Shown here one piece after another: positions 4,681 to 23,159 of a stretch of DNA of 64,000 nucleotides. The stretch covers positions 1-64,000 of the forward strand of contig JAKARB010000010.1 in assembly GCA_021819435.1 (NCBI GenBank). The letters are read 5' to 3'. How positions within the stretch are numbered: the stretch's first letter is position 1; each line of letters starts with the position of its first letter. Under the pieces are notes generated by a model. The model was given only the letters and a program-made list of their open reading frames with translations. It had not been told where the DNA came from and did no database searches. Made by a program: the position numbers and the translations under genes. The stretch is from Pseudomonadota bacterium. Its GTDB lineage: Bacteria > Pseudomonadota > Gammaproteobacteria > Burkholderiales > Burkholderiaceae_C.

Positions 4681-4947
4681 ATGCACACCGACTTGGCGTT
4701 GTGGATGATGGGGGATCTGCTGTGGAATGCCGCGCTGATCTCTGCGCCTCTGTTGGGTTTCACCCTGCTGGTGGGTGTCCTTGTGAGCTTGTTGCAAGCG
4801 GTCACTCAGGTGCAGGAAATGTCTCTGAGTTTCGTGCCGAAGCTCATTGTGTCTGTGCTGGTGTTGGTCGCCTTCGGTCCGTGGATGCTGCATAAGCTGT
4901 TGTCTTACGCGGCAGGTTTGATCTCCAACATCCCGTCCTACATCTGA
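4681..4947 (+). CDS. fliQ: Flagellar export gate protein FliQ
   Basis: 88 residues with two transmembrane helices (about 17-40 and 52-78), the usual size and shape of FliQ/SctS. The phrase LLQAVTQVQEMSLSFVPK matches the conserved cytoplasmic loop of the family. The ATG at 4681 is chosen because it gives the canonical length; an upstream in-frame start at 4636 would add a polar tail not found in FliQ and would run through the palindrome. FliQ joins FliP and FliR in the export gate inside the MS ring. It is the first gene of the cluster, while its usual neighbour fliP lies about 17 kb away at the other end. Confidence 0.93.
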   Translation: MHTDLALWMMGDLLWNAALISAPLLGFTLLVGVLVSLLQAVTQVQEMSLSFVPKLIVSVLVLVAFGPWMLHKLLSYAAGLISNIPSYI

Positions 4948-4963
4948 TTCCAAAGGCTTCGCT

Positions 4964-5728
4964 GTGCGGTTGGCAGTGGACCCCTCCTGGATCGTTGCGG
5001 TGCTGCTGGTCAGCATCCGGCTGGGCGCATTGTTTGGTCTCACGCCTGTGTTCGCGGCGCTCCAGATGCCGCCCATGGTTCGTGTCTGGCTGTTGGTGGG
5101 CATGTCTTCGTCCATGCTGATCGGCCTGGGTTTGCCCGTGTCGGGCATCGCTTGGTCGCCGTGGACGCTGATGGGAGCCTGCGCATCGGAATTGGCGGTT
5201 GGGGCCTTGATGGCTTTTGGGCTGTTCTGTGCGTTTGCCGTGTTTCAAGTGGCGGGCAAGCTGCTGGATTTGCAGATTGGCTTCAGCATCGGCAGTGTGT
5301 TCGACCCTGCCACGCGAACCCAGATGCCTTTGCTCGGTTCCATGCTTCACATGTTGGCGTTGGCCTTGTTCTTTGCCTCGGACGCCCACCACTTGCTGCT
5401 CAAGGGCATCGCATGGTCTTTCCACCAAGTGCCGCCGGGCTCCGGTCTGGCTGAGCTCAACTTCGACGCGATCGTGGCGCAGTTCGGCCTGATGTTCGTG
5501 CTGGGCCTCGTGTTGGTTGCGCCGGTGGTGCTGGTTTTGCTTTTGATGGACATCGGCCTGGGCATGATCTCGCGAACCATGCCGCAGCTCAACATTTTTG
5601 TCATTGGCATCCCCACCAAGATCGCGGTCGGTTTCCTGATGCTCTGGTGCTCATTGATGTACCTGTCTCCGCTCATGCACCGAGCTTTTGCGTCCATCTT
5701 CCAATACTGGCAAAGGTTGTTGGGCTGA
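4964..5728 (+). CDS. fliR: Flagellar export gate protein FliR
   Basis: 254 residues with six hydrophobic segments, the normal FliR/SctT size. It uses a GTG start 16 bases after the fliQ stop. The phrase LLDLQIGFSIGSVFDP is the typical FliR loop around the third and fourth helices, and the helix ending near QLNIFVIGIPTKI is also characteristic. FliR caps the FliPQ spiral and contacts FlhB. Its stop overlaps the flhB start (TGATG), so the two are translationally coupled. Confidence 0.93.
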   Translation: MRLAVDPSWIVAVLLVSIRLGALFGLTPVFAALQMPPMVRVWLLVGMSSSMLIGLGLPVSGIAWSPWTLMGACASELAVGALMAFGLFCAFAVFQVAGKLLDLQIGFSIGSVFDPATRTQMPLLGSMLHMLALALFFASDAHHLLLKGIAWSFHQVPPGSGLAELNFDAIVAQFGLMFVLGLVLVAPVVLVLLLMDIGLGMISRTMPQLNIFVIGIPTKIAVGFLMLWCSLMYLSPLMHRAFASIFQYWQRLLG

Positions 5729-6819
5729 TGGCTGAGCAAGAACAGGATCGCAGCGAATCGGCAACGCCTCACAAGCTGAGCGAAGCCAAGAAGAAGGGCT
5801 CGGTCGCCAAGAGCCTGGAGATCAGCTCGGTCGTGGTGATGGCCGCGTTGTTGCTGGCCTTGCGGATGTGGGGCGGCTCGGCATCGCAGGCCCACGCGTT
5901 GCTGGACATGGGCATCTTCAACCAGATGGGGCGCCTCAATTTTTCGGAAGCCGGCGTGTTGGCCTGGGGCACCCGGGTGTGCCTGGAGACGATGGTGTTG
6001 CTTGCGCCATTTTTGGTGGCCGTGTTGGTTGCTGGCGTCCTGGGGCACTGGGGCCAAACGGGCCCGATTTTTTCGTTCGAGCCGGTCAAGCCTGACTTCA
6101 ATCGGTTGAACCCCGCCGAGGGCTTGAAGAAACTGTTTTCCACCAAGGCGTTGTTCGACCTGGGCAAGAACACGCTCAAGTTGGTCTTGTTCAGCTGGAT
6201 CCTTTACATGGTGCTCAACAGCATGCGGTCCGATTTGATGGGGCTGTTGCAGGTCGATGCGAAAAGCCTGGGCAAGCACTTCTTGAACGACCTCACATCG
6301 GTGGCTTTCAAACTCATCATCGCCTTGGCGGCGGTTGCGTTGCTGGACTTGCTCTTTACCCGGTGGGACTTTGCTCAAAAAATGCGGATGAGCAAGCGGG
6401 AGGTCAAGCAAGAGTTCAAGCAGCGCGAGGGCGATCCGAAAATCAAGGCCCGCATCCGCGAGTTGCAAAGCGAAATGCGAAAGCGCGGCAAGGGCATGAG
6501 GAACCTGCCCGATGCGGATGTGCTGGTGACCAACCCGACGCACCTTGCCGTCGCCTTGCAATACAAGCGGGGCGACATGGACGCGCCGATGATCGTGGCC
6601 AAGGGCGCGGGCGACATGGTGCCCAAGATGAAGCAGGTGGCCCGGGCGCATGGCGTGATGATTGTCGAGAACAAGCCCTTGGCACGGGCTTTGTTCAAAG
6701 TGAACATGGACAGCCCTGTCCCGAGCGAGCAATTCGCTGCGGTCGCCCGGTTGCTCGTGTGGGTCTATGCACAAAGAGAGGCTCGCGAGAAGGCTCGCCA
6801 GTCATTGAGGGGGGAATGA
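5728..6819 (+). CDS. flhB: Flagellar export switch protein FlhB
   Basis: 363 residues. The N-terminus (about 7-25) has the conserved polar FlhB start with PHKLSEAKKKG, then four membrane helices (about 33-55, 85-107, 145-170, 190-215). A basic linker leads to the cytoplasmic domain with the autocleavage site NPTH at 269-272, intact. FlhB sets which substrates are exported, switching from rod/hook to late substrates after self-cleavage. An intact NPTH means the switch can operate although no late (filament) substrates are encoded here. The start overlaps the fliR stop, and the stop overlaps the flhA start. Confidence 0.95.
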   Translation: MAEQEQDRSESATPHKLSEAKKKGSVAKSLEISSVVVMAALLLALRMWGGSASQAHALLDMGIFNQMGRLNFSEAGVLAWGTRVCLETMVLLAPFLVAVLVAGVLGHWGQTGPIFSFEPVKPDFNRLNPAEGLKKLFSTKALFDLGKNTLKLVLFSWILYMVLNSMRSDLMGLLQVDAKSLGKHFLNDLTSVAFKLIIALAAVALLDLLFTRWDFAQKMRMSKREVKQEFKQREGDPKIKARIRELQSEMRKRGKGMRNLPDADVLVTNPTHLAVALQYKRGDMDAPMIVAKGAGDMVPKMKQVARAHGVMIVENKPLARALFKVNMDSPVPSEQFAAVARLLVWVYAQREAREKARQSLRGE

Positions 6820-8879
6820 TGGGTAGTTTGAGGCGCGTGCTGGGCAGTCAGGCAGATCTGGCCTTGGTGTTCTTGGTGCTGGGCATCCTAGTGGTGCTCT
6901 TCGCGCCAATTCCATCGGGGCTGTTGGATGTGTTGATCCTGACCAACGTCAGCTTTGCGTTGCTGCTGCTGCTGTTGACGTTCTACATGCCCAAGCCTGT
7001 CGAGTTCTCGACATTCCCGGCGTTGTTGCTGGTGGCAACGCTGTTTCGCTTGTCGCTCAACATCGCCGCGACCCGTTTGATCCTGACCGACGCGGATGGC
7101 GGGCGGGTCATCGGTGCCATTGGCTCCTTCGTTGTTGGAGGCAATTACGTCATCGGGCTCATTGTTTTCCTGATTCTGGTGGTGGTTCAGTACGTGGTGG
7201 TGACCAGCGGGGCGCAGCGTGTCTCCGAGGTCGCCGCGCGCTTCACGCTGGACTCGATGCCAGGACAGCAGATGAGCATCGACGCGGACCTCAACATGGG
7301 GTTCATCGACCAACAGGAGGCCATGCGCAGGCGGAAGTTGATCGAGAAAGAGGCAGGCTTTTATGGCGCCATGGACGGCGCCAGCAAATTCGTCAAAGGC
7401 GATGCCGTCGCGGGCATCATCATCATGCTGATCAACATCATCGGTGGCTTGGTGATCGGGGTGATGCAGCAAGGCATGTCTTGGGCTGATGCGCTGCACA
7501 CGTTCACGCTGTTGACCATTGGCGATGGCATCGTGACCCAAATCCCGGCGCTCGTGATCTCGGTGGGCACGGGCATCCTGGTCACCCGATCAGCCTCCGA
7601 TGGCAGCTTGAGTGCCGAGGTCTTCCGGCAGATCATGGCGTATCCCAAGAGCCTGATGCTGGTCATGGTGGCGCTGTTTGGCTTGCTCATGTTGCCCGGC
7701 ATTCCCTTTTTGCCGGGGCTTTTGGTCTTGGCGGGTCTGGGTCTGATCACCATGCTTGCCAGGAAAGAAGCGCCCGATGCCGCCACAGAAGAAATCGAGG
7801 CGCCGGCTGTGGGCGAGGCAGCAGGCAACGAAAGTGCTTACGAGGCCTTGAGCCAGGATCCGATTGAAGTGCGAGTGGGTGAGCGACTGCTGCCATTGGT
7901 CAGTCAGGCGGCCAGCCCCTTCATGGACCGCATCAATGCGTTTCGCAAGCAGCATGCTCAAGAGTCTGGTTTTGTGGTGCCCAACATCCGGTTCCGTGAC
8001 GACCGAGCGCTTCAAGGTGGCGTTTACGAGATCCGAATCCATGGCGCCACCGCCGCGAAAGGCGTTGTGCACCTTGGCAAGACACTGGCCATCCATGGCG
8101 GCGGCGAGCTGAAAAAGATCGATGGCATCGAAACCAGGGACCCAACCTACGGACTGTTGGCTTACTGGATTGAGCCTGAAGTTCGGGAAGAGGCGCGCGC
8201 CGCGCGCTTCACCTTGGTGGATGCGGAAACCACGTTCTTGACGCACCTGTTCGAGGTGTTGCGCCAGCAGTCCGCGCAGTTGCTCACGCGCAGCGCGGTG
8301 GATCACTTGATCTCGCGCGTGCGCAAGGAGCAGGCCGGCCTGGTCGATGAGCTGCTGCCTGGTGTGCTGACCCTGAGCGAAGTGCAGAAGGTCTTGCAGG
8401 GGCTGCTCAAGGAGAAGGTGTCCATCCGAAACCTGGATCTGATCTTGGAGGTTCTGATCGATGCAGGGCGCACGGTCAAAGACCCGGCGCAGTTGACAGA
8501 GTTGGTCCGGCAGCGGTTAGCACCAATCATCTGTCAGCCACTTTTGAGCGATGCGGGCTTGATTCAGGTATTGACGCTGGATCCAAACGTGGAGCAAGCC
8601 ATTGCCAAGAGCTTGCGCACGGTGAACGCGTCGACCAGCCTGGTCCTGGAGCCGCGTTTCGCTGAGGTGCTCATGGGCGCGACAGTTGCCCAAGTTGACA
8701 AGATGATGAAACACAGCTTGGTGCCTGTGTTGCTCTGCGCGCCGGAGTTGCGCCGGCATTTGCGCACCTTGACCGAGCGCGTGTTGCCGCATTTGCGCAT
8801 CATCTCCTTGTCAGAGATTCCGGGTAATGTGGGCTTGCGCTCGTATGGCACGGTGCACGTGCCGGTGCAAGGCACCTAA
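6819..8879 (+). CDS. flhA: Flagellar export gate protein FlhA
   Basis: 686 residues, normal for FlhA/SctV. Eight hydrophobic segments occupy the first about 320 residues. The FHIPEP signature region (RLSLNIAATRLIL) follows the second pair of helices, and the charged cytoplasmic loop with SIDADLNMGFID is conserved. The C-terminal half is the cytosolic ring domain that docks chaperone-substrate complexes. Either ATG 6816 or 6819 could start it; 6819 has the better distance to the purine-rich run GAGGGGGG (6807-6814). It overlaps the flhB stop. The 141 bases that follow, before flgF, hold no gene. Confidence 0.95.
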   Translation: MGSLRRVLGSQADLALVFLVLGILVVLFAPIPSGLLDVLILTNVSFALLLLLLTFYMPKPVEFSTFPALLLVATLFRLSLNIAATRLILTDADGGRVIGAIGSFVVGGNYVIGLIVFLILVVVQYVVVTSGAQRVSEVAARFTLDSMPGQQMSIDADLNMGFIDQQEAMRRRKLIEKEAGFYGAMDGASKFVKGDAVAGIIIMLINIIGGLVIGVMQQGMSWADALHTFTLLTIGDGIVTQIPALVISVGTGILVTRSASDGSLSAEVFRQIMAYPKSLMLVMVALFGLLMLPGIPFLPGLLVLAGLGLITMLARKEAPDAATEEIEAPAVGEAAGNESAYEALSQDPIEVRVGERLLPLVSQAASPFMDRINAFRKQHAQESGFVVPNIRFRDDRALQGGVYEIRIHGATAAKGVVHLGKTLAIHGGGELKKIDGIETRDPTYGLLAYWIEPEVREEARAARFTLVDAETTFLTHLFEVLRQQSAQLLTRSAVDHLISRVRKEQAGLVDELLPGVLTLSEVQKVLQGLLKEKVSIRNLDLILEVLIDAGRTVKDPAQLTELVRQRLAPIICQPLLSDAGLIQVLTLDPNVEQAIAKSLRTVNASTSLVLEPRFAEVLMGATVAQVDKMMKHSLVPVLLCAPELRRHLRTLTERVLPHLRIISLSEIPGNVGLRSYGTVHVPVQGT

Positions 8880-9020
8880 CCAAGGGGAGGCATCCTTGCC
8901 CCGATGGCAGGGGGCGCGTGATACGATGAATTCAGCAAGTTAAACAGTACAAGAAGTACAAATTTGCTGCGAATTTGCTTTTGCATCTCACATAAACAAT
9001 GAGCAGTAGGGAGTGACTGC

Positions 9021-9731
9021 ATGAGCGCGGGCTTACAAGCTGCCGCTGGCAGCATGATGGCGGATATCGAGCGACTGGCTTCGCTCAGCCGCAACCTTGC
9101 CAACGTCGGGACCGTGGGCTACAAGCGCGAGATCGCGCGAGCCTTGCCTTTTGAACAGGCGATGGCGCTGGCCTCCGGAGATGCACGCGAGCAGATTCAG
9201 TTGGCTCGTGACTTCAAGACCGGCCCCATTCGCGAAACCGGCAATCCGCTTGATCTGGCCCTCGATGGCGATGGCTTTCTTGTGGTTTCCACATCAGACG
9301 GCGATGCCCTGACACGTTCTGCGAGCCTGCGACTTCAAAGTGATGGTCTGCTGGTGACGCAAGCTGGATGGCCTGTTCAGACCGATGCGGGTGATCTGCG
9401 CATCACCTTTGCCAATCCCAAGATCGATGCTCAAGGGCGAATCTTCGACGGCGAGCGCCTGGTGGCGCAGCTGAAGCTGGTCAAGCCGGCAAAGAGCGAG
9501 GGCCTGATTTTTTCTGGAGGGGGGCTGTATGTGCCCCAAGAGTCCTCCGGGCTGAAGCCCGCCGATGGTGTCGGTGTGCGGCAAGGCTATCTCGAAATGT
9601 CGAATGTCGAGTCAGCTCAGGAGATGGTGAGGTTGCTCGAGACCGTGCGGCACTTTGAGGCTGGCCAGAAAATGGTCCAAGGCATGGACGAAATGATGGA
9701 TCGGGCACTGAAAAAGCTCGGCGAGTTCTGA
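9021..9731 (+). CDS. flgF: Proximal rod protein FlgF
   Basis: 236 residues, slightly shorter than usual FlgF. The N-terminal rod signature is present (LSRNLANVGTVGYKR), with the FlgF/FlgG core GNPLDLALDGDGFLVV and the C-terminal coiled region (YLEMSNVESAQEMVRLLE). The N-terminus diverges from classical FlgF, which usually begins MDxxIY, and the call rests on its position directly ahead of flgG and on length. A good GGGAG ribosome site precedes the ATG. A 141-base gap separates it from flhA, so a new promoter may lie there; GTAC-N5-GTAC and repeated AATTTGC words are visible in it but no clear promoter. Confidence 0.88.
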   Translation: MSAGLQAAAGSMMADIERLASLSRNLANVGTVGYKREIARALPFEQAMALASGDAREQIQLARDFKTGPIRETGNPLDLALDGDGFLVVSTSDGDALTRSASLRLQSDGLLVTQAGWPVQTDAGDLRITFANPKIDAQGRIFDGERLVAQLKLVKPAKSEGLIFSGGGLYVPQESSGLKPADGVGVRQGYLEMSNVESAQEMVRLLETVRHFEAGQKMVQGMDEMMDRALKKLGEF

Positions 9732-9765
9732 GCGTGTCAACGCGTTATCTGGGGAGGGCAGGGCG

Positions 9766-10545
9766 ATGATTGATTCTCTGTACATTGGCGCCACGGGGTT
9801 GCAGGCTCAGCAGGCCAATGTGAATGCCATTTCGAACAACCTGGCGAACGTCAACACGCCGGCATACAAGCGTGCCCGCGTGGCGTTTCAGGACATGTTC
9901 TACCGCGAGCTTTCTCGCGCAGGTGCTGCGGATGTGCCCCAGCAACTTCGCCAGGCGGTTGGCACAGGTGTCGGGATCCTGAGCACGTCGAAGGTGTTCG
10001 TGGATGGTGACTTGGTCAAAACCGATGACCTGATGGATGTCGCGATCCGAGGGGATGGCTTCCTGGAGGTCGCATTGCCCGATGGGTCGCTCGGCTACAC
10101 CCGTGGCGGGCACCTCCAGGTCACCAAAGACCGGCTGCTGGCGTCTGCCGATGGCTCGGTTTTGCACCCTCAAATCACCGTGCCCGCCGACATGAAGTCC
10201 ATCATGATCGATGCGGATGGCAAGGTTCACGGCTTGCCCCGAGATGGCAGCAAGCCGGTCGAGCTGGGACGGCTGGAGCTGGTTCGCTTCGACAACCCAG
10301 GCGGATTGCAGGCGCTCAGCAACAACCTGTACAAGGCCAACGCCGATTCTGGCGAACCGCTCGCGGGTGAGCCTTCACAAGATGGATTCGGTTCGCTGGC
10401 TCAAGGGTTCACCGAAGGCTCCAACGTCAAGTTGGTGGACGAAATGGTGAGCTTGATGGTCGCCCAACGAGCTTATGAGATCAACGCGAAAGTCATTCAG
10501 GCATCTGACGAGTTGATGAGCATGAGCAACAACTTGCGCCGCTGA
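9766..10545 (+). CDS. flgG: Distal rod protein FlgG
   Basis: 259 residues, canonical FlgG length. It begins MIDSLYIGATGLQAQQ and has ISNNLANVNTPAYK at about 22-35, the standard rod signature, and the C-terminal phrase EGSNVKLVDEMVSLMVAQRAYE, which is diagnostic for FlgG. It builds the distal rod that passes through the P and L rings. Start preceded by GGGGAGGG. Its presence means the structure can extend through the periplasm. Confidence 0.95.
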   Translation: MIDSLYIGATGLQAQQANVNAISNNLANVNTPAYKRARVAFQDMFYRELSRAGAADVPQQLRQAVGTGVGILSTSKVFVDGDLVKTDDLMDVAIRGDGFLEVALPDGSLGYTRGGHLQVTKDRLLASADGSVLHPQITVPADMKSIMIDADGKVHGLPRDGSKPVELGRLELVRFDNPGGLQALSNNLYKANADSGEPLAGEPSQDGFGSLAQGFTEGSNVKLVDEMVSLMVAQRAYEINAKVIQASDELMSMSNNLRR

Positions 10546-10628: not shown

Positions 10629-11207
10629 ATGCGCATTCGTCTCTCGGTCATCGTTCTTATCTTGTCAGGCTTGGCGTGCACCTCGCTCGCTGGCGCTCAA
10701 AGTTTGTACTCGGAGCGAACGTTCCGCTCACTGACTGGAGACATGCGAGCCCGCCAGGTGGGTGATCGGCTGACCGTGGTGGTCCTGGAAAATGCCTCGG
10801 CCACCAGCACGGCCGACACCAAAGCGAGCAACGACAACCAAGCAGGTGCGTCAGCCGGGACGAAGCACCTGCGAGGCAACGTTGATTTGCAGTCTGGGTC
10901 GGCCTTTGATGGCACTGGCCGCACGCAACGAACGGGCAAATTCGCCGCGCAGTTGACCGCGACCGTGGTGGATGTCGACGCCAATGGCGATCTGCTGGTC
11001 AGTGGTGATCAACTCATCGAGATCAACGGTGAGAAGCAAGAGATCAGCCTGCAGGGGCGCGTGCGCCGGGTCGACATCGCGGAGGACAACAGCGTTGTCT
11101 CGTCCCGTTTGGCCGATGCCCGAATCAAGTTCGTGGGCGATGGCGTTGTCAGTGAGCGGCAACGAGCTGGCCTGCTCTCGAAGGTGTTCCTGTGGTTGGG
11201 GTTGTGA
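10629..11207 (+). CDS. flgH: L-ring protein FlgH, apparently without a lipobox
   Basis: 192 residues. The mature part begins SLYSERTFRSLTGDMRAR, followed by VGDRLTVVVLENASATS, the FlgH core; the C-terminus keeps the conserved VRRVDIAEDNSV-type beta region. FlgH forms the L ring in the outer membrane and is normally a lipoprotein with an LxGC box. Here the leader reads GLACTSLAGAQS: no residue pattern before the Cys fits a good lipobox, while AGA-Q looks like an ordinary signal peptidase I site. That is unusual and may alter how the ring is anchored. Confidence 0.9.
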   Translation: MRIRLSVIVLILSGLACTSLAGAQSLYSERTFRSLTGDMRARQVGDRLTVVVLENASATSTADTKASNDNQAGASAGTKHLRGNVDLQSGSAFDGTGRTQRTGKFAAQLTATVVDVDANGDLLVSGDQLIEINGEKQEISLQGRVRRVDIAEDNSVVSSRLADARIKFVGDGVVSERQRAGLLSKVFLWLGL

Positions 11208-11209
11208 GC

Positions 11210-12328
11210 ATGCGCAAGGTCTTTCAACTGCTGCTGCTCGCTCTCGCTTTGTGTGGCGCGCCCTCACATGCCGCCGATGCTGAACTTGTGCGAATCAAAG
11301 ACCTTGGCCGGCTGTCGGGGTGGCGTGATAACGCGCTGGTCGGATATGGCCTGGTGACGGGCTTGGCGGGCACAGGCGACTCGCCAAGGAACCAGGCCAC
11401 CCGGCAGTCGATTGCGAACCTGCTTCAGCAGTTCGACATCAAGCTTGACGTTGACCAAGTCAGCAGCCGGAACGTGGCGGCTGTCATGGTGACGGCCAGT
11501 TTGCCGCCCTTTGCGCGTCCGGGTGATGCGGTGGATGTGTCGGTCACTTCGGTGGGCGATGCCAGAAGCCTCTTGGGTGGAAGCTTGCTGCTGGCACCCT
11601 TGAAGGGCGCTGACGGTCGTGTGTACGCGTTGGCACAAGGGCCCGTCTCGGTGGGTGGCTACAAGTACGACATGAACGGCAATGTGGTGCAGAAAAACCA
11701 CCCAACCGTCGGTGTGATACCTGCAGGCGGCAGCGTGGAGCTGTCTGTTGCCGTGCCGGAACACGAGCGCGATCGGCCTTTGACGTTCGTTCTTGTGCAG
11801 GCTGACTACACGACGTCGGAACGGATTGCGGAGGCCATCAATCGCAGCTTTGGTGCGGGCACGGCGGTTCCCAAGGATGCGGCAGGCGTTGAAATCTCCG
11901 TGCCGAAGAACCGGAAAGACAACTTGGTCGCCTTCATGGCCGCGTTGGAGAACATCTCTGTGCAGCCGGACATGAAGGCGCGCGTGGTGGTCAATGAGCG
12001 AACGGGTGTGGTGGTGTCCGGTGGCGAGGTCAAGTTGTCCAGCGTGGTTGTGTCTCACGGCGACTTGAAGGTGACCGTGACGACCGACAACACCGTGTCT
12101 CAGCCGTTCACGTTTGGCTTCGTTCCTGGCGCCCGGACAGAGTTGGTCGCGAACAGCCGCATCGATGTGGCTGAAGGGGGGGCGAATGTCATATCCGCAC
12201 AAAGGGGAACGGTTGCGGACCTGGTCCAGGCCTTGGCCAAGGCACGGACATCCACACGAGATGTGATCGCCGTGCTGCAGGCCATCAAGGCCGCTGGTGC
12301 CTTGCGTGCGGAATTGGTGATTCAGTGA
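11210..12328 (+). CDS. flgI: P-ring protein FlgI
   Basis: 372 residues with a Sec signal peptide (about 1-22, cleavage near SHA-AD). The mature N-terminus RIKDLGRLSGWRDNALVGYG and the motif LVTGLAGTGDS are nearly invariant in FlgI. The C-terminal half includes NERTGVVVSGGEVKLS. It assembles the periplasmic P ring around the rod. The chaperone FlgA, usually needed for P-ring assembly, is not in this window. Start at ATG 11210, 2 bases after the flgH stop. Confidence 0.95.
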   Translation: MRKVFQLLLLALALCGAPSHAADAELVRIKDLGRLSGWRDNALVGYGLVTGLAGTGDSPRNQATRQSIANLLQQFDIKLDVDQVSSRNVAAVMVTASLPPFARPGDAVDVSVTSVGDARSLLGGSLLLAPLKGADGRVYALAQGPVSVGGYKYDMNGNVVQKNHPTVGVIPAGGSVELSVAVPEHERDRPLTFVLVQADYTTSERIAEAINRSFGAGTAVPKDAAGVEISVPKNRKDNLVAFMAALENISVQPDMKARVVVNERTGVVVSGGEVKLSSVVVSHGDLKVTVTTDNTVSQPFTFGFVPGARTELVANSRIDVAEGGANVISAQRGTVADLVQALAKARTSTRDVIAVLQAIKAAGALRAELVIQ

Positions 12329-12353: not shown

Positions 12354-12716
12354 ATGAGTGGTCTGACCGTGGATCTGATTCGGCTGGGTTTGAATGCGGC
12401 GTCGTTGCGGCATCAGGCAGCCGCCTCGAACATCGCCAATGCCGCTGTGCCTGGCTACAAGCGCTTGAGCGTTTCGTTCGAGGATCAATTGGCAGACCAA
12501 TTGAGCGCTGTTCGCCAACCTGATGGCTTGATCGGTGACCTGCCCGCTGGCGTTTCCCCGGTCCTCCAGGAAGCCGCAACGGCTGGTGGTGAGGTTGCCC
12601 TGGATGTCGAAGTGGCCAACATGTCCCAAAACGTCCTGCGGTACGAGACCTTGGTCAAAGGGTTGAGCAAGCACTTCTCGATCCTGAGCACGGCGATCAA
12701 CGAGGGCAAGCGTTAA
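12354..12716 (+). CDS. flgB: Proximal rod protein FlgB
   Basis: 120 residues, normal for FlgB. The phrase LRHQAAASNIANAAVPGYKR is the rod-family N-terminal signature, and DVEVANMSQNVLRYETLV is the FlgB C-terminal helix. The ATG 12354 lies 5 bases after GGGAG and gives the canonical start; GTG 12351 is an alternative. FlgB, FlgC and FliE form the most proximal rod attached to the MS ring and export gate. Confidence 0.93.
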   Translation: MSGLTVDLIRLGLNAASLRHQAAASNIANAAVPGYKRLSVSFEDQLADQLSAVRQPDGLIGDLPAGVSPVLQEAATAGGEVALDVEVANMSQNVLRYETLVKGLSKHFSILSTAINEGKR

Positions 12717-13479: not shown

Positions 13480-13490
13480 GGACGAGCCAG

Positions 13491-16158: not shown

Positions 16159-17459
16159 GGCACGAATACGCCAGGGCGATTTCAGAAGCAGACTTGTGGC
16201 AGCGAACAGGCCGCGTTTGCGAGATATCCGGGCTGTTGATCCAGTCGCGCGGACCGGATGTTGCCGTTGGCGATGTTTGTGAAGTGATTTCACACCGGGC
16301 TCAGGCGCAGGTGTTGGCGGAGGTGGTGGGTTTGCAAGCGGGGCGCGTGATGCTGATGCCGTATGGCGACATTGGTGGGATCACGCTGGGTGCGGAGGTG
16401 GTTGTCAGTGGTCAGGCTCCTGCGGTCTCCGTCGGCGAGGGCTTGCTCGGTCGGGTTGTCGATGCGTTTGGCCGGCCTCTTGACAGCAAAGGCCGATTGC
16501 ATACGCAGGGCACCCACACGCTGAAAGGCGCACCGCAAAATCCTTTGCTGCGGCCCAAGATCCAAGAGGTGCTTGAGACCGGCGTGCAGGGCATTGACGC
16601 GCTGTTAACCGTTGGCCGAGGGCAGCGCATGGGCATCTTCGCGGGAAGCGGCGTTGGCAAAAGCACCCTCTTGGGGATGATCGCTCGCCACATGAAGGCG
16701 GACGTGAACGTGATCGCGCTCATCGGTGAGCGCGGCCGCGAGGTTCTGGAGTTCATCGACCACAACCTGGGCGAAGAGGGATTGAGTCGCTCGGTGGTGG
16801 TGGTCGCCACGTCGGACGAACCCGCGCCGGTGCGAGTGAGGGCTGCCTACACCGCAACAGCCATCGCCGAGTACTTCCAGCAGCAGGGCATGGACGTGAT
16901 GCTGACCATGGACTCCGTCACGCGCTTTGCCATGGCACGCAGGGAAATCGGCTTGTCCGTCGGTGAGCCGCCCACGGCGCGGGGGTACACGCCTTCTGTG
17001 TTTGCTGAGCTACCTAAGCTCCTGGAGCGGTGTGGCACTTCCGGCTCGGGTGGGTCGATCACCGCGCTTTACACGGTCCTCGTCGATGGTGACGACATGA
17101 ATGACCCGGTTGCCGATGCGCTGAGGTCCATCTTGGACGGCCACATCGTCCTGTCAAGACAGTTGGCGACATTGGGGCAATACCCGGCCATAGACTACTT
17201 GGCCAGTGTCAGCCGATTGATGGCAGATATTGTCGGGCCGGATGATTTGGCGATGGCCCGGCAGTTCTTGAGCGTGTTGAGTGCCTATGCGCAAAACCAT
17301 CAAATGATCGACATCGGGGCTTACAAGTCGGGCACGAATCCGGATGTGGATAAAGCCATTCGTCTCAGGCCAGCCATGTTGTCATTTATCAAGCAGGATA
17401 CCAAGGCGTCCATTGGTCGCGAGCAGGCGATGATGCAATTGAGGGGGTTGTTCAAATGA
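16155..17459 (+). CDS. fliI: Flagellar export ATPase FliI
   Basis: 434 residues. Walker A GSGVGKST at about 164-171, Walker B VMLTMDSVTRFAMARRE, and the FliI/SctN signature EPPTARGYTPSVFAELPKLLERCG. The N-terminal beta-barrel (1-90) and C-terminal helical domain are complete. It unfolds and hands substrates to the FlhA ring. Overlaps fliH and fliJ by 4 bases each. All catalytic elements look intact, so an energised export apparatus is expected. Confidence 0.96.
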   Translation: MRHEYARAISEADLWQRTGRVCEISGLLIQSRGPDVAVGDVCEVISHRAQAQVLAEVVGLQAGRVMLMPYGDIGGITLGAEVVVSGQAPAVSVGEGLLGRVVDAFGRPLDSKGRLHTQGTHTLKGAPQNPLLRPKIQEVLETGVQGIDALLTVGRGQRMGIFAGSGVGKSTLLGMIARHMKADVNVIALIGERGREVLEFIDHNLGEEGLSRSVVVVATSDEPAPVRVRAAYTATAIAEYFQQQGMDVMLTMDSVTRFAMARREIGLSVGEPPTARGYTPSVFAELPKLLERCGTSGSGGSITALYTVLVDGDDMNDPVADALRSILDGHIVLSRQLATLGQYPAIDYLASVSRLMADIVGPDDLAMARQFLSVLSAYAQNHQMIDIGAYKSGTNPDVDKAIRLRPAMLSFIKQDTKASIGREQAMMQLRGLFK

Positions 17460-17905
17460 AGATCAAATACCCACTCGAATCCTTGCTCAGAAAGCGTGAA
17501 TGGGATGTTGATATTCAAAAGGGACAGCTTGCCGTGCAGCGGGCGCTGGTCGATCAATTGAAAAATTCCTATCTGCTCAGCAAAGACAGGTACGAAGGGC
17601 AAATATCAAGAATAGAAGCGGTCTTCTCGGGGCAATCTCTCTCTTTGAGTCGATATGAGCTCGAGCGAGCCTATCTTCCCGAGTTGTCTAGGAAGATGGA
17701 GGAGGCACAAATTGAATGGCTGGAGGCGATCGAAGTTGAGGAGCAAATGAGGGAGCGCCTCAGGGAGCTGATGATCGAGCTGCAGGTTACGCAAGAGCAC
17801 AAGAAGCAGCACCTGCTTGAGGCCATGTCTGAGTTGCAGAAAAAAGAACTCAAGGCCGCAGACGAGCAATGGCTGTTGACCAACCCGATTGGGGGCTTTG
17901 CATGA
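17456..17905 (+). CDS. fliJ: Flagellar export stalk protein FliJ
   Basis: 149 residues, almost entirely charged coiled coil (for example QIEWLEAIEVEEQMRERLRE), the normal FliJ architecture, starting YPLESLLRKREWDVD, which matches the family's N-terminal pattern. It sits in the FliI hexamer and contacts FlhA. Overlaps fliI and the next gene by 4 bases. From about here to the end of the cluster the DNA is visibly more AT-rich than the genes before. Confidence 0.85.
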   Translation: MKIKYPLESLLRKREWDVDIQKGQLAVQRALVDQLKNSYLLSKDRYEGQISRIEAVFSGQSLSLSRYELERAYLPELSRKMEEAQIEWLEAIEVEEQMRERLRELMIELQVTQEHKKQHLLEAMSELQKKELKAADEQWLLTNPIGGFA

Positions 17906-18573
17906 AATTGTCAAGCATCGAGGTCGGAGGCGATGGCGATTTCTTGAAGAAGGATTCGTTTGTCGCCCGCGAGGGGCTGAAACGAAAGTGGGAACAGTCT
18001 CTGTACGAAGGCGAGCGTCGGCTCCAGGACGCCGATTGTGATCGTCGGGGCTCAAACATGCATATTCAGCCAGACCCCGCGGAAACGCTGCCGTCAAAGC
18101 TGGCATCGAATGGGATGCGATGTGCTATGGAAGTTTCTGGCATGGCTGTCTCTCACAGAGTCGGCACATCATTTTTCCATGAGACGGCGACGGATTCCCT
18201 TGTGGTCAATGGAGAAGCAGATGCCAGGCTGAAAATGGATCAAGCAAGAAATGATGTGGCGCCTTGCTGTTCACCTGATAGGCAGGCGAGGGTTGCTGAC
18301 CCACTTCATTTGATCGAGCAGGGAGAGATGAGCCAAGATCTCGCCCAGAATTTTCAAGACGTCCGCATTGAATGCTTGGAGAAATCAGAACGAGACACCG
18401 TTTGCGTGAACTTGACGGATTCGGCTGAGGGTGTGAGCCTCTGGATTCGCGTGGCGGATGAGGCAAAAGGCAAAAAAATCATCGCCGATGTGCTGATGGC
18501 CTTGAGGCTCAATGAGTGGGCAAAAGATGCGCAGGTCTTTGTCAATGGAAGTCTTTACGCACGCTACAAATAA
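17902..18573 (+). CDS. Unrecognised protein in the fliK (hook-length) position
   Basis: 223 residues, starting at ATG 17902 inside the fliJ stop. It stands between fliJ and flgD, where fliK usually lies, but is about half its length and lacks the typical Pro/Gln-rich ruler. The last about 60 residues (VNLTDSAEGVSLWIRVADEA, then a helix and a short beta end) have the alternating beta/helix look of the FliK/SctP switch domain. A role as a short ruler or switch protein acting on FlhB is inferred from position and this vague fold resemblance. Four Cys residues, unusual for an exported protein, count against it. Confidence 0.45.
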   Translation: MKLSSIEVGGDGDFLKKDSFVAREGLKRKWEQSLYEGERRLQDADCDRRGSNMHIQPDPAETLPSKLASNGMRCAMEVSGMAVSHRVGTSFFHETATDSLVVNGEADARLKMDQARNDVAPCCSPDRQARVADPLHLIEQGEMSQDLAQNFQDVRIECLEKSERDTVCVNLTDSAEGVSLWIRVADEAKGKKIIADVLMALRLNEWAKDAQVFVNGSLYARYK

Positions 18574-18586
18574 ATCGGAGAAATAA

Positions 18587-18994
18587 ATGGCAGTCAGTTC
18601 AATTGGTCAGGTTCTGGCGGATGGGCAATCATCCCAGGCGGCAAGCATTGGTCAAGAGGATTTCCTGAAGATATTGACAACCCAGCTCAATTATCAAGAT
18701 CCGTTGAAGCCAATGGATAACCAGGAGTTCCTTGCTCAAATGGCCCAGTTTGCATCTCTTGAGCAGTCACGCCAAATTGGCGAGAGTGTTCAAAATCTGC
18801 TGTCAGTGCAGGCGGCTACTCAGTCGGTCGGGTTGATAGGCAGGACGGTTGATGTTAACACCGCCAACGGGTCGCAGATCGGCACGGTGACGTCCCTTTC
18901 GTTTTCAAACGGCGTGCCTGCAATGAGCATCAGAACGACCGCCGGGGCGTTTCTGACTGGTATTTCCGTGAGCCAGATATCTGTGGTGAGGTGA
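18587..18994 (+). CDS. flgD: Hook capping protein FlgD (short form)
   Basis: 135 residues. The N-terminal signature is complete: GQEDFLKILTTQLNYQDPL, then MDNQEFLAQMAQFASLEQ. It ends after one beta domain (VGLIGRTVDVNTANGSQIG to the C-terminus), lacking the FnIII-like domain of 220-residue FlgD proteins such as that of Salmonella. Short FlgD proteins of this size are known in Gram-positive flagella. It acts as scaffold for hook polymerisation. AT-rich spacing of 13 bases from the preceding gene with GGAG ahead of the start. Confidence 0.93.
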   Translation: MAVSSIGQVLADGQSSQAASIGQEDFLKILTTQLNYQDPLKPMDNQEFLAQMAQFASLEQSRQIGESVQNLLSVQAATQSVGLIGRTVDVNTANGSQIGTVTSLSFSNGVPAMSIRTTAGAFLTGISVSQISVVR

Positions 18995-18998
18995 TGCC

Positions 18999-20168
18999 AT
19001 GATCGATTCAATCCTGATTGGGATGACTGGTTTGGCCAGCCAATCCAAAGGGCTCAACGTGATAAGCAATAACGTTGCGAACTTGAATACAGTTGGGTTC
19101 AAGGGCGCCTCGCTTCGGTTTGAAGATTTGTACTATCAGGAGGATGCTCGCTCCGAAATGCATGGGAACGGCGTCACGACTGGTGAGTCTTCCTTGTCCA
19201 TGAAGCAGGGAGAAACACGGCAAACCGGCAATGACTTGGATCTGATGATCGACGGTGCTGGGTTGTTCGTGGTGAATGCCAATGGTTCGTTGCACTTCAC
19301 AAGGAATGGACAATTTTCCCTGAGCAGCGATGGTTCCATTGAGGAGAAATCGTCTGGAGCCAAGCTGAGCTACCTGAGTGATGCCGGGAATTTGGGTACT
19401 TTTTCAGTGAGAGGACGGCGCACCAGTGCTCCTGTGCAAACCTCTGCAATCACATTCAGCGGGAATTTGTCACTTTCCGGAACTCAGCACACGATCTCCA
19501 ATGTCACGGTGTATGACGGCGTTGGCAATGCCGCCCAGTTCTCTTTGAAGTTCGAAAATAACAGCGCGAACGCTCAAGGAACGTGGAATGTGTCTGTTTT
19601 GAATGCCGCGGGCACGAGTGTGGCAACCGGACAAATAGCCTTCAGCGGCGGGAGGCCGGTGCTGGGCAGCGACAAGATATCTTTCTCCTTGCCATCCGCA
19701 GGCGGCGCATCTGTGCCCGTTACGCTGGACTTTTCCACCGACGCGACTTCTACTGCAGGTTCTGCCGACTCGACCTTGATCGTTTCTGGGCAAAATGGGC
19801 GTCCAGCGGGAAGCCTCACAAAGGTGACTTTTGATTCAGAGGGCCGTCTGGCAGTCTCTTATTCCAACGGATCAACGGAGAAATTTGAGAAGTTGGCGCT
19901 GGCCTGGTTTGCCGGCGGCGAATCCTTGAAACAAGAGGGCGGCAATTTGATGGCTGCCAGAGACGGCATCGCGCCCATTTATGGATTTGTGTCGCAAGGC
20001 GTCAACGGGAAATTGAGCGTTGGCGCATTGGAGATGTCCAATGTCGACATTTCCCAGCAATTCAGTGAGTTGATCATCACGCAGCGTGCTTATCAGGCGT
20101 CATCGCACATCATCACGACTGCGAACGAAATGCTGCAACAGCTCTTCGACATGAAGGGACGCCGCTGA
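18999..20168 (+). CDS. flgE: Hook protein FlgE
   Basis: 389 residues, normal for FlgE. N-terminal ISNNVANLNTVGFKGASLRFEDLYYQ and C-terminal LEMSNVDISQQFSELIITQRAYQASSHII with TTANEMLQQLF are the hook signatures that form the inner core. The middle (about 145-330) is a variable Ser/Thr/Gly-rich surface domain. This is the most distal structural component encoded; no FlgK, FlgL, FliD or flagellin follows. Stop and next start overlap (TGATG). Confidence 0.95.
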   Translation: MIDSILIGMTGLASQSKGLNVISNNVANLNTVGFKGASLRFEDLYYQEDARSEMHGNGVTTGESSLSMKQGETRQTGNDLDLMIDGAGLFVVNANGSLHFTRNGQFSLSSDGSIEEKSSGAKLSYLSDAGNLGTFSVRGRRTSAPVQTSAITFSGNLSLSGTQHTISNVTVYDGVGNAAQFSLKFENNSANAQGTWNVSVLNAAGTSVATGQIAFSGGRPVLGSDKISFSLPSAGGASVPVTLDFSTDATSTAGSADSTLIVSGQNGRPAGSLTKVTFDSEGRLAVSYSNGSTEKFEKLALAWFAGGESLKQEGGNLMAARDGIAPIYGFVSQGVNGKLSVGALEMSNVDISQQFSELIITQRAYQASSHIITTANEMLQQLFDMKGRR

Positions 20169-20938
20169 TGCCTGTTTGCAGAATGAAGTGGCTGACGCAG
20201 ACGGAGCAATCTGGTTGGCGTGAGTTTCTGCGCTCAGGCATGAGGCAATGGGCGCCTCAATGGTTGGGGGCGTCAGATGGCTTGACAGATGTTTCAGTTG
20301 CCTCCGCCGCCGCACGCGATTTCAACGAGTCGATCGGGGTGCTGTTCAACGCATCCACCATGCTTTCAGGAAAAAGTCAGGCGGTCCGTTGCTGGATTTC
20401 CATTTGTCACATGCGGGAATTTGCCCGCAAATTCTGGGGGGATTCTGCCGGACCAATTGACTCGCAGCGTGAAATCGTTATGGATGTGCTCATCGATGCC
20501 CTGGTGAGTTTGATCGCGGGCAGCGAGACCGAAGTGCGAGCCGAGCATGCAGCCCAAACCGGAATGATTGGCTCTTGCTTCCGCTCTGCGGATTCTCTTT
20601 CAGTGGCATTTTCAATCGAATCTGATGAGTTGGAAATCATTTGCTCTTTTGGAGAGGATGAAGATCCATTGGAGTGGGGCGCTGTTCGTGGCGTTGTTGC
20701 AGGGCGATTGGAGAAGCAACTTCTCATAGAGTTGTGCGGGCATCAACGCATGCCGTTCGAGGTCACCCTGGGTTGCGCGGAAATTGAAATTGGGGCGCTA
20801 TCCGATTTGGCGATTGGAGACGTCATTCGCCTTGACTCAGATATCGATAAGCCTCTTCGGGTAACGGCCAAGGGGGAACATTTTGGGGAAGCTTTTCTTG
20901 GCGCCTTAGAGGGCAGAAAAGCCATTCAATTAACATGA
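20168..20938 (+). CDS. FliM-like/SctQ-like protein with C-terminal SpoA domain
   Basis: 256 residues against about 330 for FliM. The C-terminal about 70 residues (FEVTLGCAEIEIGALSDLAI to KAIQLT) form a recognisable SpoA (FliMN_C) domain. The rest is poorly conserved. The N-terminus does not contain the EIDALL-type CheY-binding motif, and I see no GGxG motif of the FliM middle domain that touches FliG. It therefore resembles SctQ/HrcQ of injectisomes more than a motile-flagellum FliM. It stands directly before fliN (4-base overlap), the normal fliM place. The C-ring or sorting-platform role is inferred. Confidence 0.7.
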   Translation: MPVCRMKWLTQTEQSGWREFLRSGMRQWAPQWLGASDGLTDVSVASAAARDFNESIGVLFNASTMLSGKSQAVRCWISICHMREFARKFWGDSAGPIDSQREIVMDVLIDALVSLIAGSETEVRAEHAAQTGMIGSCFRSADSLSVAFSIESDELEIICSFGEDEDPLEWGAVRGVVAGRLEKQLLIELCGHQRMPFEVTLGCAEIEIGALSDLAIGDVIRLDSDIDKPLRVTAKGEHFGEAFLGALEGRKAIQLT

Positions 20939-21270
20939 CGTTTGCAGTGATGAGTGACGAAAAAAAAGCACACCTTGTTGAGTTGGAGGAATTGCGCCTT
21001 GAGGTTGGGGGCACGCAAGTGATCGCCGACCCTTTGCAACTGATCCGTACCGTGCGAGTACCGGTAAAAGTTGTCATTGGAGAGGGATCCATTCAGGTAT
21101 CTCAACTTGAGTCTCTCCGGACTGGCTCAGTTCTGGCGCTTGATCGAGATCTGAATGCCCCAGTCGATCTGGTGGTTGAAGGCCAGGTCATTGCAAAGGG
21201 GGTGATTGTGGCTGTGGGCGATAAGTTTGGCATACAGCTCACGGAGCTGGGCCCGAAGAAAGATGCTTGA
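20935..21270 (+). CDS. fliN: C-ring / export-platform protein FliN
   Basis: 111 residues. The C-terminal two thirds is a SpoA domain: IRTVRVPVKVVIGEGSIQVSQ, LRTGSVLALDRDLNAPVDLVV and GKFGIQL-like end (VGDKFGIQLTEL). FliN forms the base of the C ring and docks FliH-FliI. The start may be ATG 20935 or ATG 20950. It overlaps the fliM-like gene and fliO. Confidence 0.9.
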   Translation: MTFAVMSDEKKAHLVELEELRLEVGGTQVIADPLQLIRTVRVPVKVVIGEGSIQVSQLESLRTGSVLALDRDLNAPVDLVVEGQVIAKGVIVAVGDKFGIQLTELGPKKDA

Positions 21271-21652
21271 TCCTGATCGGCGGTTTGCCCGTTTGTGCCT
21301 GCTCTTCGTTTCTTTGCTCTTGATTTGTGGCCTTGCGCGTGCCAGTGGTGAGGCCAATGCAAAAGAGTTGGAGATTTCTCTGACGGATGCTTTCCGTGTT
21401 GCCCTCGGTTTTGTTTTCTGTGTTGCCGCTGCCGGAGGACTCCTGGTTCTGCTGAATCGAAAATTCCGATTTGCTCGGCATTTTAAAATATCGGAATCTG
21501 ATTCAATTGAACGTGCCGTGGTCCTGCAGTCGACAAAGTTGGACATCACGTCATCATTGCATGTTGTGGAGTGGGGTGGGCGACGGTACTTGCTTGCAAA
21601 AACCTCGTCCAATGTCACATTGCTTGATGTTAAGAATAAAAATGAAACGTAG
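21263..21652 (+). CDS. fliO: Flagellar biosynthesis protein FliO
   Basis: 129 residues with an N-terminal signal-like helix (about 8-28), a second hydrophobic helix (about 45-62) and a small cytoplasmic beta domain with VVEWGGRRYLLA, which is the typical FliO end. It assists assembly of FliP. Position between fliN and fliP is canonical. Its sequence is weakly conserved, so the call relies on topology, size and gene order. Overlaps fliN and fliP. Confidence 0.85.
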   Translation: MLDPDRRFARLCLLFVSLLLICGLARASGEANAKELEISLTDAFRVALGFVFCVAAAGGLLVLLNRKFRFARHFKISESDSIERAVVLQSTKLDITSSLHVVEWGGRRYLLAKTSSNVTLLDVKNKNET

Positions 21653-22442
21653 TCGGGCTTCTTTCAAGGCGGGTATTCGATTGCTCGGCCTGGCTATTGT
21701 ATTTTTGATTGTTTATTCTCTCATGGCCGGGGATGCCATGGCGGCTCTCTCGTCTGTTGATGTGACCCCTGGTATTCATCTGATCCCTCCCTCTGGCGGA
21801 TCTGCCGGTCAAAAATGGAATTCGGCCATACAGGTTCTTGTTGGTCTTACTGCTCTCAGCCTTGCGCCTGGTATCCTGGTTTCTGCGACATCTTTCATCA
21901 GAATAGTTGTCGTGCTGTCGATGCTCAGGCACGCCATCGGCATGCAGGAAACCCCGCCCAACGCTGTTCTGGTGAGTTTGGCGCTGATTCTGACGGTCTT
22001 CACAATGCGTCCGGTCATCGATGAGGTGAAATCTCAGGCGTATGAGCCATTGGTTGCGGCGGCCATCACAGAGGAGGTCGCTCTGGACCGTGCGCAAAGC
22101 GTGATGAGGAAATTCCTGCTGAAGCAAACCCGGGAGAAGGACATCGCGTTGATGGTTGAGCTCTCGGGTGAGGCGCTTCCTGAATCCGCCGCCCAGGTTT
22201 CGATGTTGCAATTGGTTCCCGCGTTCATCATCAATGAATTGCGTGTGGCATTTCAGATCGGTTTCATCATATTCGTGCCGTTCTTGCTGATTGACCTGGT
22301 TGTTTCGGCGGTGTTGATGGCGCTCGGTATGATGATGGTCCCGCCGTCCATGATCTCGTTGCCCCTGAAAATTCTCATGTTTGTGCTCATAGATGGATGG
22401 GGGTTGGTGGTCAAGGCATTGGTTTCCAGTTTCAAGCTGTGA
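21642..22442 (+). CDS. fliP: Flagellar export gate protein FliP
   Basis: 266 residues with a cleavable signal peptide (about 1-39). Signature phrases include LAPGILVSATSFIRIVVVLS, MLRHAIGMQETPPN, the periplasmic helical region with TREKDIALM, and MLQLVPAFIINELRVAFQIGF. It builds the pentameric gate with FliQ and FliR. It lies some 17 kb from fliQ and fliR, which are normally adjacent to it. ATG 21642 lies inside the fliO end. Confidence 0.95.
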   Translation: MKRSRASFKAGIRLLGLAIVFLIVYSLMAGDAMAALSSVDVTPGIHLIPPSGGSAGQKWNSAIQVLVGLTALSLAPGILVSATSFIRIVVVLSMLRHAIGMQETPPNAVLVSLALILTVFTMRPVIDEVKSQAYEPLVAAAITEEVALDRAQSVMRKFLLKQTREKDIALMVELSGEALPESAAQVSMLQLVPAFIINELRVAFQIGFIIFVPFLLIDLVVSAVLMALGMMMVPPSMISLPLKILMFVLIDGWGLVVKALVSSFKL

Positions 22443-22460
22443 TTCACCAGAATATCGAAC

Positions 22461-23159
22461 ATGACGCAACAGGAGGATGCAAGCCTGTGGGATTCTTTTT
22501 GGCGTGGATGTGATTCTGCGCGCGAGTCCCTCATTGCTTTGTATGCTCCTTATGTCCGGGTTGTCGCGGCCAAGTTGTTTTCCTCAAGGAGTGATCCTGG
22601 TTTTGAGTTCGATGACTATCTCCAGTTCGGCATGGTCGGTTTGATCGAGTCGTTGGACCGGTACCGTCGTGGTAGCGAGGCAACCTTTAAAACGTTCGCT
22701 TATTACCGTGTCCGAGGCGCGATCCTGGACGGCGTGGCGGGGCTGTCTGATCGTCAGCGACAGATATCGCATTACGCACGCTTGCGTAAAGATCGGCTGA
22801 CCTCGTTGTCGGCTGGCACGGTTGCAGAAGACGAAGAGTCCATTGACGATGCTTTGAACCGCATCGGTGATGTCGTGGTTGATCTGGCCATTGGCGTTTT
22901 GATGGAAGGCTCGGCTTTTTGCCATGACGAATCGGCGATGGCAGACGATCCCCGGTATCGGGATTTTGAGCTGAGGCAGATGCAAGGCCGTGTCATGAGG
23001 ATCATTGACGATTTGTCCACGGATCAGGCCAAAGTCTTGCGTCTGCATTATTTGCAGGACTGGCCGTTTGACGACATTGCGGAACACATGGGTTTGAGCA
23101 AGGGAAGGATTTCCCAGCTACACAAGAAAGCCATTGCCGAAATCAGGGAATTGCTTTGA
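22461..23159 (+). CDS. fliA: FliA-family sigma-28 factor
   Basis: 232 residues. Region 2 is clear (DDYLQFGMVGLIESLDRYRR; TFKTFAYYRVRGAILDGV), a spacer with the sigma-3 region follows, and region 4 ends LSKGRISQLHKKAIAEIREL, a helix-turn-helix for the -35 element. This matches FliA-type sigma factors. It closes the cluster, 18 bases after fliP, so it probably serves this system rather than a general flagellum. The cognate anti-sigma FlgM is not seen in the window. Confidence 0.88.
   Translation: MTQQEDASLWDSFWRGCDSARESLIALYAPYVRVVAAKLFSSRSDPGFEFDDYLQFGMVGLIESLDRYRRGSEATFKTFAYYRVRGAILDGVAGLSDRQRQISHYARLRKDRLTSLSAGTVAEDEESIDDALNRIGDVVVDLAIGVLMEGSAFCHDESAMADDPRYRDFELRQMQGRVMRIIDDLSTDQAKVLRLHYLQDWPFDDIAEHMGLSKGRISQLHKKAIAEIRELL

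Follow-up and report, generated by a model that had tools for sequence, protein, structure and literature searches.

The flagellar-type cluster and its parts

The DNA analysed here (the window) comprises bases 1–64,000 of contig C17 (JAKARB010000010.1) of a Burkholderiales genome of 4.41 Mb in 27 contigs, and carries at positions 4681–23159 a cluster of 24 contiguous plus-strand genes for a flagellar-type export apparatus with rod, rings and hook. With start codons reassigned here, all 24 frames are open and adjacent genes overlap at 13 of the 23 junctions, in line with the original prediction of 24 consecutive, mostly overlapping genes. The window starts at contig base 1, inside a gene at 27–2360 (plus strand; open from contig base 3, with its N-terminus outside the contig) for the C-terminal part of an RHS-type giant, a putative exported toxin. 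Directly after it, at 2320–2820 on the same strand, lies the gene for a 166-residue protein that is, by position, a candidate immunity protein. The giant's fragment has no Pfam match, and the 166-residue protein has none in Pfam, NCBIfam, PHROGs or PADLOC.

The cluster opens with the export genes fliQ (4681–4947; Pfam PF01313), fliR (4964–5728; PF01311), flhB (5728–6819; PF01312) and flhA (6819–8879; PF00771), followed by genes for a flgF-like rod protein (9021–9731) and flgG (9766–10545), each recognised by Pfam and by its E. coli counterpart. Next come flgH for the L ring (10629–11207; PF02107), flgI for the P ring (11210–12328; PF02119), flgB (12354–12716; PF00460) and flgC (12731–13189; PF06429), the last two also with E. 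coli matches, then fliE (13189–13479; PF02049), fliF for the MS ring (13476–14984; PF01514 and PF08345) and a 160-codon gene (14981–15463). After this gene the order is fliH (15460–16158; PF02108), the ATPase gene fliI (16155–17459; PF00006 and PF18269), a gene for a 149-residue protein in the place of fliJ (17456–17905) and one for a 223-residue protein in the place of fliK, between fliJ and flgD (17902–18573). The hook genes flgD (hook cap; 18587–18994; PF03963 and NCBIfam) and flgE (18999–20168; Pfam and NCBIfam FlgEFG_subfam) are followed by two genes for FliMN_C proteins (both PF01052), namely a 256-residue FliM/SctQ-like protein with the domain at its C-terminus (20168–20938) and FliN (20935–21270), and then by fliO (21263–21652; PF04347, with NCBIfam TIGR03500 below cut-off), fliP (21642–22442; PF00813) and a fliA-like sigma factor gene (22461–23159; Pfam sigma-70, with NCBIfam TIGR02479, FliA/WhiG-like, below cut-off). 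Pfam matches cover the MS ring, rod, P and L rings, hook, FlhAB-FliPQR and FliHI; there is none for the products of 14981–15463, 17456–17905 and 17902–18573, and none in NCBIfam for the last. No secretin is among the Pfam matches of the window cluster; FlgH and FlgI stand there instead. The gene list given earlier is borne out by Pfam for nearly all its entries; it had overlooked the FliM-like gene beside fliN, for which a profile matches FliM-FliN structures over the FliMN_C domain (E 4e-11).

When 44 E. coli flagellar and chemotaxis proteins were compared with the full 64 kb, 17 had a match and 27 had none. The unmatched queries include FlgA, FlgJ, FlgK, FlgL, FlgM, FlgN, FliC, FliD, FliS, FliT, FliG, FliL, MotA and MotB, and the earlier statement that filament, cap, junction, stator and full-length FliG are missing from the window stands on this search. 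The FliJ, FliK, FliM and FliO queries were unmatched as well, although divergent FliM- and FliO-type genes are present, so that a miss is not proof of absence.

The 160-codon gene after fliF, which the original prediction had left unrecognised while correctly noting the lack of a full FliG, is a short FliG as judged from its predicted structure and from a profile of its relatives. The AlphaFold2 model (pLDDT, predicted local distance difference test, 87) retrieved only FliG entries among its top 19 matches in a structure search, and a sequence profile built from 30 relatives also finds FliG (best whole-sequence E 9.4e-5). The protein has the N-terminal FliF-binding part and a middle-type domain, with no separate torque domain; no FliG_C domain was found in this gene or elsewhere in the cluster. 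FliG is reduced to the parts that link FliF with FliM and FliN.

A distinct lineage with and without ordinary flagella

The window genome also encodes an ordinary flagellum. Contig C16 carries fliE, fliF, a full fliG and fliH to fliR; C22 carries flgM, flgA and flgB to flgL; C18 carries flhB, flhA and fliA; and C8 carries two flagellin genes, fliD, fliS and fliT, while flgN was not found in the extracted stretches of this second set. There are two FlhA proteins in the genome and a single FliG_C domain, the one on C16 that belongs to the ordinary flagellum. A motAB pair resembling that of E. coli (E 4e-89 and 9e-86) accounts for one of the genome's six MotA/TolQ/ExbB-type loci and lies about 167 kb from the cluster, at the opposite end of C17. 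Where window proteins match the second set they are 26–48% identical to it, in some cases over one domain only; this comparison used a greedy gene list, which missed several pairs seen otherwise. We therefore rejected the possibility that the cluster is half of a split flagellum, which the original prediction had named as the finding that would refute it: filament, stator and fliG genes do lie elsewhere in the genome, as part of a separate ordinary set that does not match the cluster in phylogeny, and the cluster's FlhA belongs to a lineage of its own.

In a tree of 47 FlhA proteins (Proteobacteria only, midpoint-rooted, with the labels of non-cluster rows set here), all 25 cluster rows form one clade with support 100/100 on a stem of 0.69, which bears out the suspicion of a distinct lineage relative to primary, lateral and injectisome families. 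The clade adjoins 15 flagellar rows (flagellar group support 86/68) and is apart from seven injectisome-type rows, whose labels come from profile scores and, in one case, from a check of the context as well. Three lateral-type rows, whose contigs also carry second FliG_C and flagellin-type matches, fall outside it.

That the machine can stand alone was seen in other genomes. We searched 55 handles of cluster genomes for FliG_C (50 of the 80 named loci described below and five relatives, amounting to 54 genomes, one taken twice) and found no FliG_C in ten; the same ten are the cluster genomes, among the 54, that lack Flagellin_N. In seven of these ten the only FlhA is that of the cluster: Ramlibacter paludis, Microbulbifer rhizosphaerae, Kangiella sp. 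HZ709, Oleiagrimonas citrea, Microbulbifer sp. YPW16, M. sediminum and an uncultured Sphingomonadaceae. Microbulbifer sp. YPW16 is a 4.19-Mb record with "complete genome" in its title, and the other six are drafts. Since ten genomes keep the cluster without FliG_C and flagellin, the machine stands there without filament or torque domain, and, with only a short FliG encoded in the cluster, the earlier view that this is not a swimming flagellum is supported.

Among relatives the cluster is scattered. A search of 100 of them with the window FlgE separated six bearers (213–818 bits) from ordinary FlgE proteins (at most 135 bits); the bearers are three of 42 genomes of the genus, none of 18 others of the family and three of 40 others of the order, a patchiness that marks the cluster as accessory. 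An extra partial copy in G010 scored 149 bits; that genome, of the same genus, has a second, partial cluster, from fliF to flgE, on a small contig of its own, C38 (1–5843), in addition to the cluster on C55, and three FlhA proteins. An FlhA-alignment scan of named genomes, from which the best 80 loci were taken, extended the range to Beta-, Gamma- and Alphaproteobacteria. These 80 loci come from Massilia, Duganella, Ralstonia, Roseateles, Variovorax, Ramlibacter, Pandoraea, Chromobacterium, Methylophilaceae, Dyella, Lysobacter, Microbulbifer, Kangiella, Pseudoalteromonas, Legionella, Sphingomonas, Erythrobacter and others.

All 80 loci were mapped with their flanks. A closer map was made of 25 larger regions, namely the window, those of the ten genomes lacking FliG_C, ten more and four of early relatives. 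Profiles retrained on this set find a member of 19 of the 24 gene types in every region. In a stricter count of non-overlapping genes, 12 types occur in 25/25 regions (FliF, FlgB, FlgC, FlgD, FlgE, FlgF, FlgG, FlgH, FlgI, FlhA, FliI and FliP), FliN, FliE, FlhB and FliR in 24, FliH, the FliM-like protein and FliA in 23, FliQ and FliO in 22, short FliG in 21, the FliJ type in 16 and the 223-residue protein in one. The family in the place of FliJ recurs in 19 regions when searched with a local profile. A family termed U5 takes the place of the fliK-place protein in 12/25 regions and has no recognisable relatedness to the window's 223-residue protein. Between flgG and flgH, 18/25 regions have a gene of family U2, which is FlgA (Pfam ChapFlgA) in all three members scanned. 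None of the genes on the 25 maps has an E. coli protein as its best match, filament, stator and chemotaxis proteins included. Gene order in the 25 regions is kept in blocks, with rearrangement in the Alphaproteobacteria and some Oxalobacteraceae. The original prediction had named other Burkholderiales as the place to look for this order; that scope was too narrow, as the cluster also occurs in Gamma- and Alphaproteobacteria.

The base composition of the window fits an acquired island: GC content is 57.4% in the cluster and 59.5% in the 4.5 kb on its 5' side, against 66.8% in the part of the window 3' of the cluster and 62–67% in six other stretches of the host genome. The step from 57.4% to 66.8% falls at 23159–23200, after fliA, and probably marks the boundary of the island; the open frame that follows fliA encodes a carboxymuconolactone decarboxylase domain.

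Giant RHS-type neighbours and their N-terminal region

We grouped the unknown genes around the 25 clusters by single linkage. One family, of giant proteins or cut pieces of them, is present in 17/25 regions, the window included, at 0.2–5.6 kb from the cluster, and Ralstonia sp. A12 has a further giant N-terminus at a greater distance. The original prediction had left the gene at 27–2360 unlinked to the cluster; the giants of relatives supply the link, as the first ~200 residues of its product align with the stretch that follows the RHS repeats in cluster-adjacent giants (six matches from five genomes, E 4e-10 to 2e-8). At least four RHS-type motifs lie in one frame in 12 of the 17 giant-bearing regions, compared with at most one per frame in control stretches (~207 kb from the window genome and 53 kb from E. 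coli). All six giants that were scanned have RHS repeats, in 8–53 stretches each, and the open frames of the giants run from 2,000 to more than 4,000 residues. A PT-HINT, GH-E nuclease or ribonuclease domain was recognised in three of ten C-terminal ends of 400 residues, and no known toxin domain in the other seven, the window's among them. The first ten residues of eight giants hold no or one lysine or arginine (FlgH and FlgI hold two), and the giants are thus without the basic start of Sec signals. Two further families recur as neighbours: U1 in 18/25 regions, with tetratricopeptide repeats (TPR) in all four members scanned, and U4, of about 125 residues, in 13/25.

We built a profile, A2, from the first 120 residues of eight giants. 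In the 100 relatives it matched four of the six cluster bearers and none of the 94 other genomes (Fisher 4e-6). In 369 genomes of the class, cluster-type FlhA (above 1,000 bits, the next score being 716) is confined to the window genome, G370, G414 and G450, and A2 scores above 80 bits are confined to the last three, that is, to three of four bearers and none of 365 others. Each of the three has an A2 match on the very contig that carries FlhA; in G450 this match is cut by the contig end and scores 43 bits, and stronger ones lie on other contigs. The FlhA contigs of these three genomes were not among the 80 fetched loci, and they carry the cluster with short FliG, complete except for fliA in G370. 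The association in the class holds when weak matches are counted (p = 2e-4). Over 467 different genomes combined, strong A2 matches occur in 7/9 bearers, which span six families, and in 0/458 others, a statistic that ignores relatedness. G080, a Chitinimonas by its match with locus L111, has four N-termini of the cluster-linked type, on contigs C57, C73, C147 and C209 (L195, L197, L199 and L200), one of them in an open frame of more than 5,300 residues, and several substrates per machine are possible. Weak A2-like long frames without a cluster-type FlhA were seen in G249 (C220), G241 (C372), G431 (C25), G324 (C1), G173 (C52) and G153 (C40), perhaps with another carrier.

The type VI secretion system (T6SS) protein TssC was absent from 23 of the 44 cluster genomes searched, the window genome included, and from five of the ten that have no flagellum. 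Four of these five, namely Kangiella sp. HZ709, Microbulbifer sp. YPW16, M. sediminum and the Sphingomonadaceae genome, also have a giant with the common N-terminus no more than 2.3 kb from the cluster, and in them the cluster is the sole representative of the systems searched (flagellum, T6SS and FlhA-type export). Neither PAAR nor VgrG is among the Pfam matches of six giants, one of which has a sub-cut-off match resembling a phage baseplate.

Interpretation and rival explanations

Our comparisons suggest that the cluster probably encodes a distinct, non-rotating, flagellum-derived type III machine that has spread horizontally and exports giant RHS toxins. The two parts of this reading differ in strength: that the machine is distinct and non-motile is very probable, and export of the RHS giants, for which the argument is built from gene linkage and sequence, is likely. 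The original prediction of a secretion or surface nanomachine is borne out in its non-swimming character and can be sharpened to RHS-giant export, with the surface structure rated lower. In flagella, FlhAB-FliPQR and FliHIJ feed unfolded chains into a channel that spans both membranes and is made up of the rod, the P and L rings and the hook. In the machine proposed here, the rod and a short hook would form such a channel across both membranes, and the structure would end at the hook, without junction and cap proteins. FlhA and FliHIJ would recognise the N-terminal region common to the RHS giants, and the linked TPR and U4 proteins may be chaperones that feed them. The giants would be threaded out, and the variable tips at their C-termini (nuclease, RNase or HINT where recognised) would act on competing or host cells; the gene at 27–2360 would encode the tail of such a substrate, and that at 2320–2820 may provide immunity.

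Several observations weigh against this reading. Two bearers among the 100 relatives had no A2 match: G084 and the window genome, whose giant gene is truncated at the contig end. Weak A2 matches of 23–60 bits occur in 12 of the 365 class genomes without the cluster, which implies that part of the N-terminal domain is more widely shared. Five of the 17 giant-bearing regions, the window among them, hold nothing but pieces in which no RHS motif could be counted. The window itself lacks a U2/flgA gene and has neither a U1 (TPR) nor a U4 neighbour, and a scan with the sigma-28 promoter pattern found nothing in common.

The rival with the most in its favour, which we nonetheless consider unlikely, is a non-rotating hook-like surface structure for adhesion, twitching control or sensing, beside which the RHS genes would be island passengers. 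Passages of a study of Lysobacter enzymogenes OH11 report that its flagellar export system affects twitching, with flhA, flhB, fliI and fliR needed (PMC7277350). Export of the giants is reached by inference, and 8/25 of our regions have no giant within 7–8 kb of the cluster, some because the contig ends. Passenger status, however, would not lead one to expect an N-terminal region that tracks the cluster across six families, and linkage alone leaves the N-termini on further contigs of the same genomes (four in G080) unexplained. Delivery of the giants by a T6SS, with the flagellar-like cluster unrelated to them, has its basis in the fact that many RHS toxins are T6SS-delivered and in the presence of TssC in 21/44 cluster genomes; we regard it as highly improbable, given the 23 genomes without TssC, the four in which the cluster is the sole system beside a giant with the common N-terminus, and the Pfam matches of six giants, which are free of PAAR and VgrG, though one giant shows the baseplate-like hit below cut-off.

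Two further explanations take the cluster as part of ordinary motility, present or past. A cryptic or lateral-type second flagellum could borrow filament, stator and FliG from a primary system, and the window genome and 44/54 other cluster genomes do hold flagellin, while the hook parts are flagellar. Retention of the cluster in ten of 54 genomes without FliG_C and flagellin already largely refutes this explanation. The cluster encodes no more than a short FliG and its FlhA does not group with the lateral-type rows, and we judge borrowing to be very unlikely. The remaining explanation, a decaying remnant of a lost flagellum, accords with the missing motility genes and with the view taken in passages of the Lysobacter papers, where the OH11 system is called retained after gene loss and motility genes are described as lost (PMC9927559). 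Decay is hard to square with 24 of 24 open frames in the window, with 12 gene types in 25/25 regions and ten more in 21–24, with a monophyletic FlhA clade on a long stem through three classes, or with the 44/54 genomes that keep the cluster beside a flagellin-bearing system, and it has in our estimate next to no chance of being right. The machine exporting RHS giants thus remains our preferred reading, and we lean towards regarding it as a branch of its own in the flagellum/type III family, the third after flagella and injectisomes. It would be free of stator and filament, aided by TPR proteins, dedicated to RHS proteins whose open frames, above 4,000 residues, are unusually long for type III substrates, and possibly a new antagonism system.

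Comparison with known systems helps to place the machine. Like injectisomes it has the same core export proteins and would export effectors without rotating; unlike them it has a flagellar rod, hook and P/L rings in place of needle and secretin, and its FlhA is outside the injectisome clade. With primary and lateral flagella it shares homologous parts of export gate, rod, ring and hook, but its own genes include none for a filament, cap, junction or torque domain, and its FlhA forms a separate clade. The giants resemble RHS polymorphic toxins linked to T6SS, Sec or TcB/TcC in their RHS repeats, variable C-terminal domain and, once, HINT; they differ in an N-terminal region of their own, which lacks a basic signal start and is tied to the cluster.

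The closest described case is L. enzymogenes OH11, where, in passages of PMC7277350, an export system works without a flagellum and secretes foreign flagellin in dependence on flhB and fliI; FlgD is stated to be among its secreted proteins in part of PMC9927559. Going by the partial descriptions in these papers, OH11 is like the window cluster in having export genes without flagellin, FliG, MotAB, FlgK, FlgL and FliD, and unlike it in that its genes lie outside one operon and flgB, fliE and fliM are reported lost; the covered parts of the papers make no RHS link. In our data Lysobacter sp. Root690 (L139), with divergent flgB and fliE copies, and a Lysobacter metagenome-assembled genome (L105) carry the cluster. 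FliO has been noted in "nonflagellar T3SS operons" of Pseudomonadota, which lie beside or instead of flagella in overlapping orders (Sphingomonadales, Burkholderiales and Xanthomonadales) and probably include the present system; the passages covered note only FliO and give neither a gene map nor a lineage, and neither a short FliG nor a substrate (PMC12403147). A toxin-type RNase beside Firmicutes flagellar operons had raised the question of flagellar delivery; as far as the covered text goes, this is a small RNase at ordinary flagellar operons, with no RHS giant and no filament-less machine (PMC3482391). Part of a study of flagellar loss puts partial sets at ~4% of genomes (PMC12199754). Neither the RHS link nor the lineage turned up in the open-licence literature searched.

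If our reading is right, the cluster gives a concrete living answer to the question of what use a flagellum without a propeller could be, with the motor part of FliG gone and the rest kept. A likely substrate class makes this long-standing question of evolution testable, and with it what may be a new bacterial weapon. Flagellar genes taken as remnants in non-motile bacteria, for example Lysobacter, may belong to a different machine altogether, and counts of flagellar genes could mislead genome-based prediction of motility.

Two minor features of gene content were also seen. A lipoprotein-like gene of the window (2952–4556; 529–534 residues), between the RHS tail and fliQ, is possibly part of the island and has no match in Pfam, NCBIfam, PHROGs or PADLOC. 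Between flhA and flgF, locus L048 (4372–5834) and also L081, L084, L085 and L087 have a gene for about 400–500 residues together with a small FlhB-like gene.

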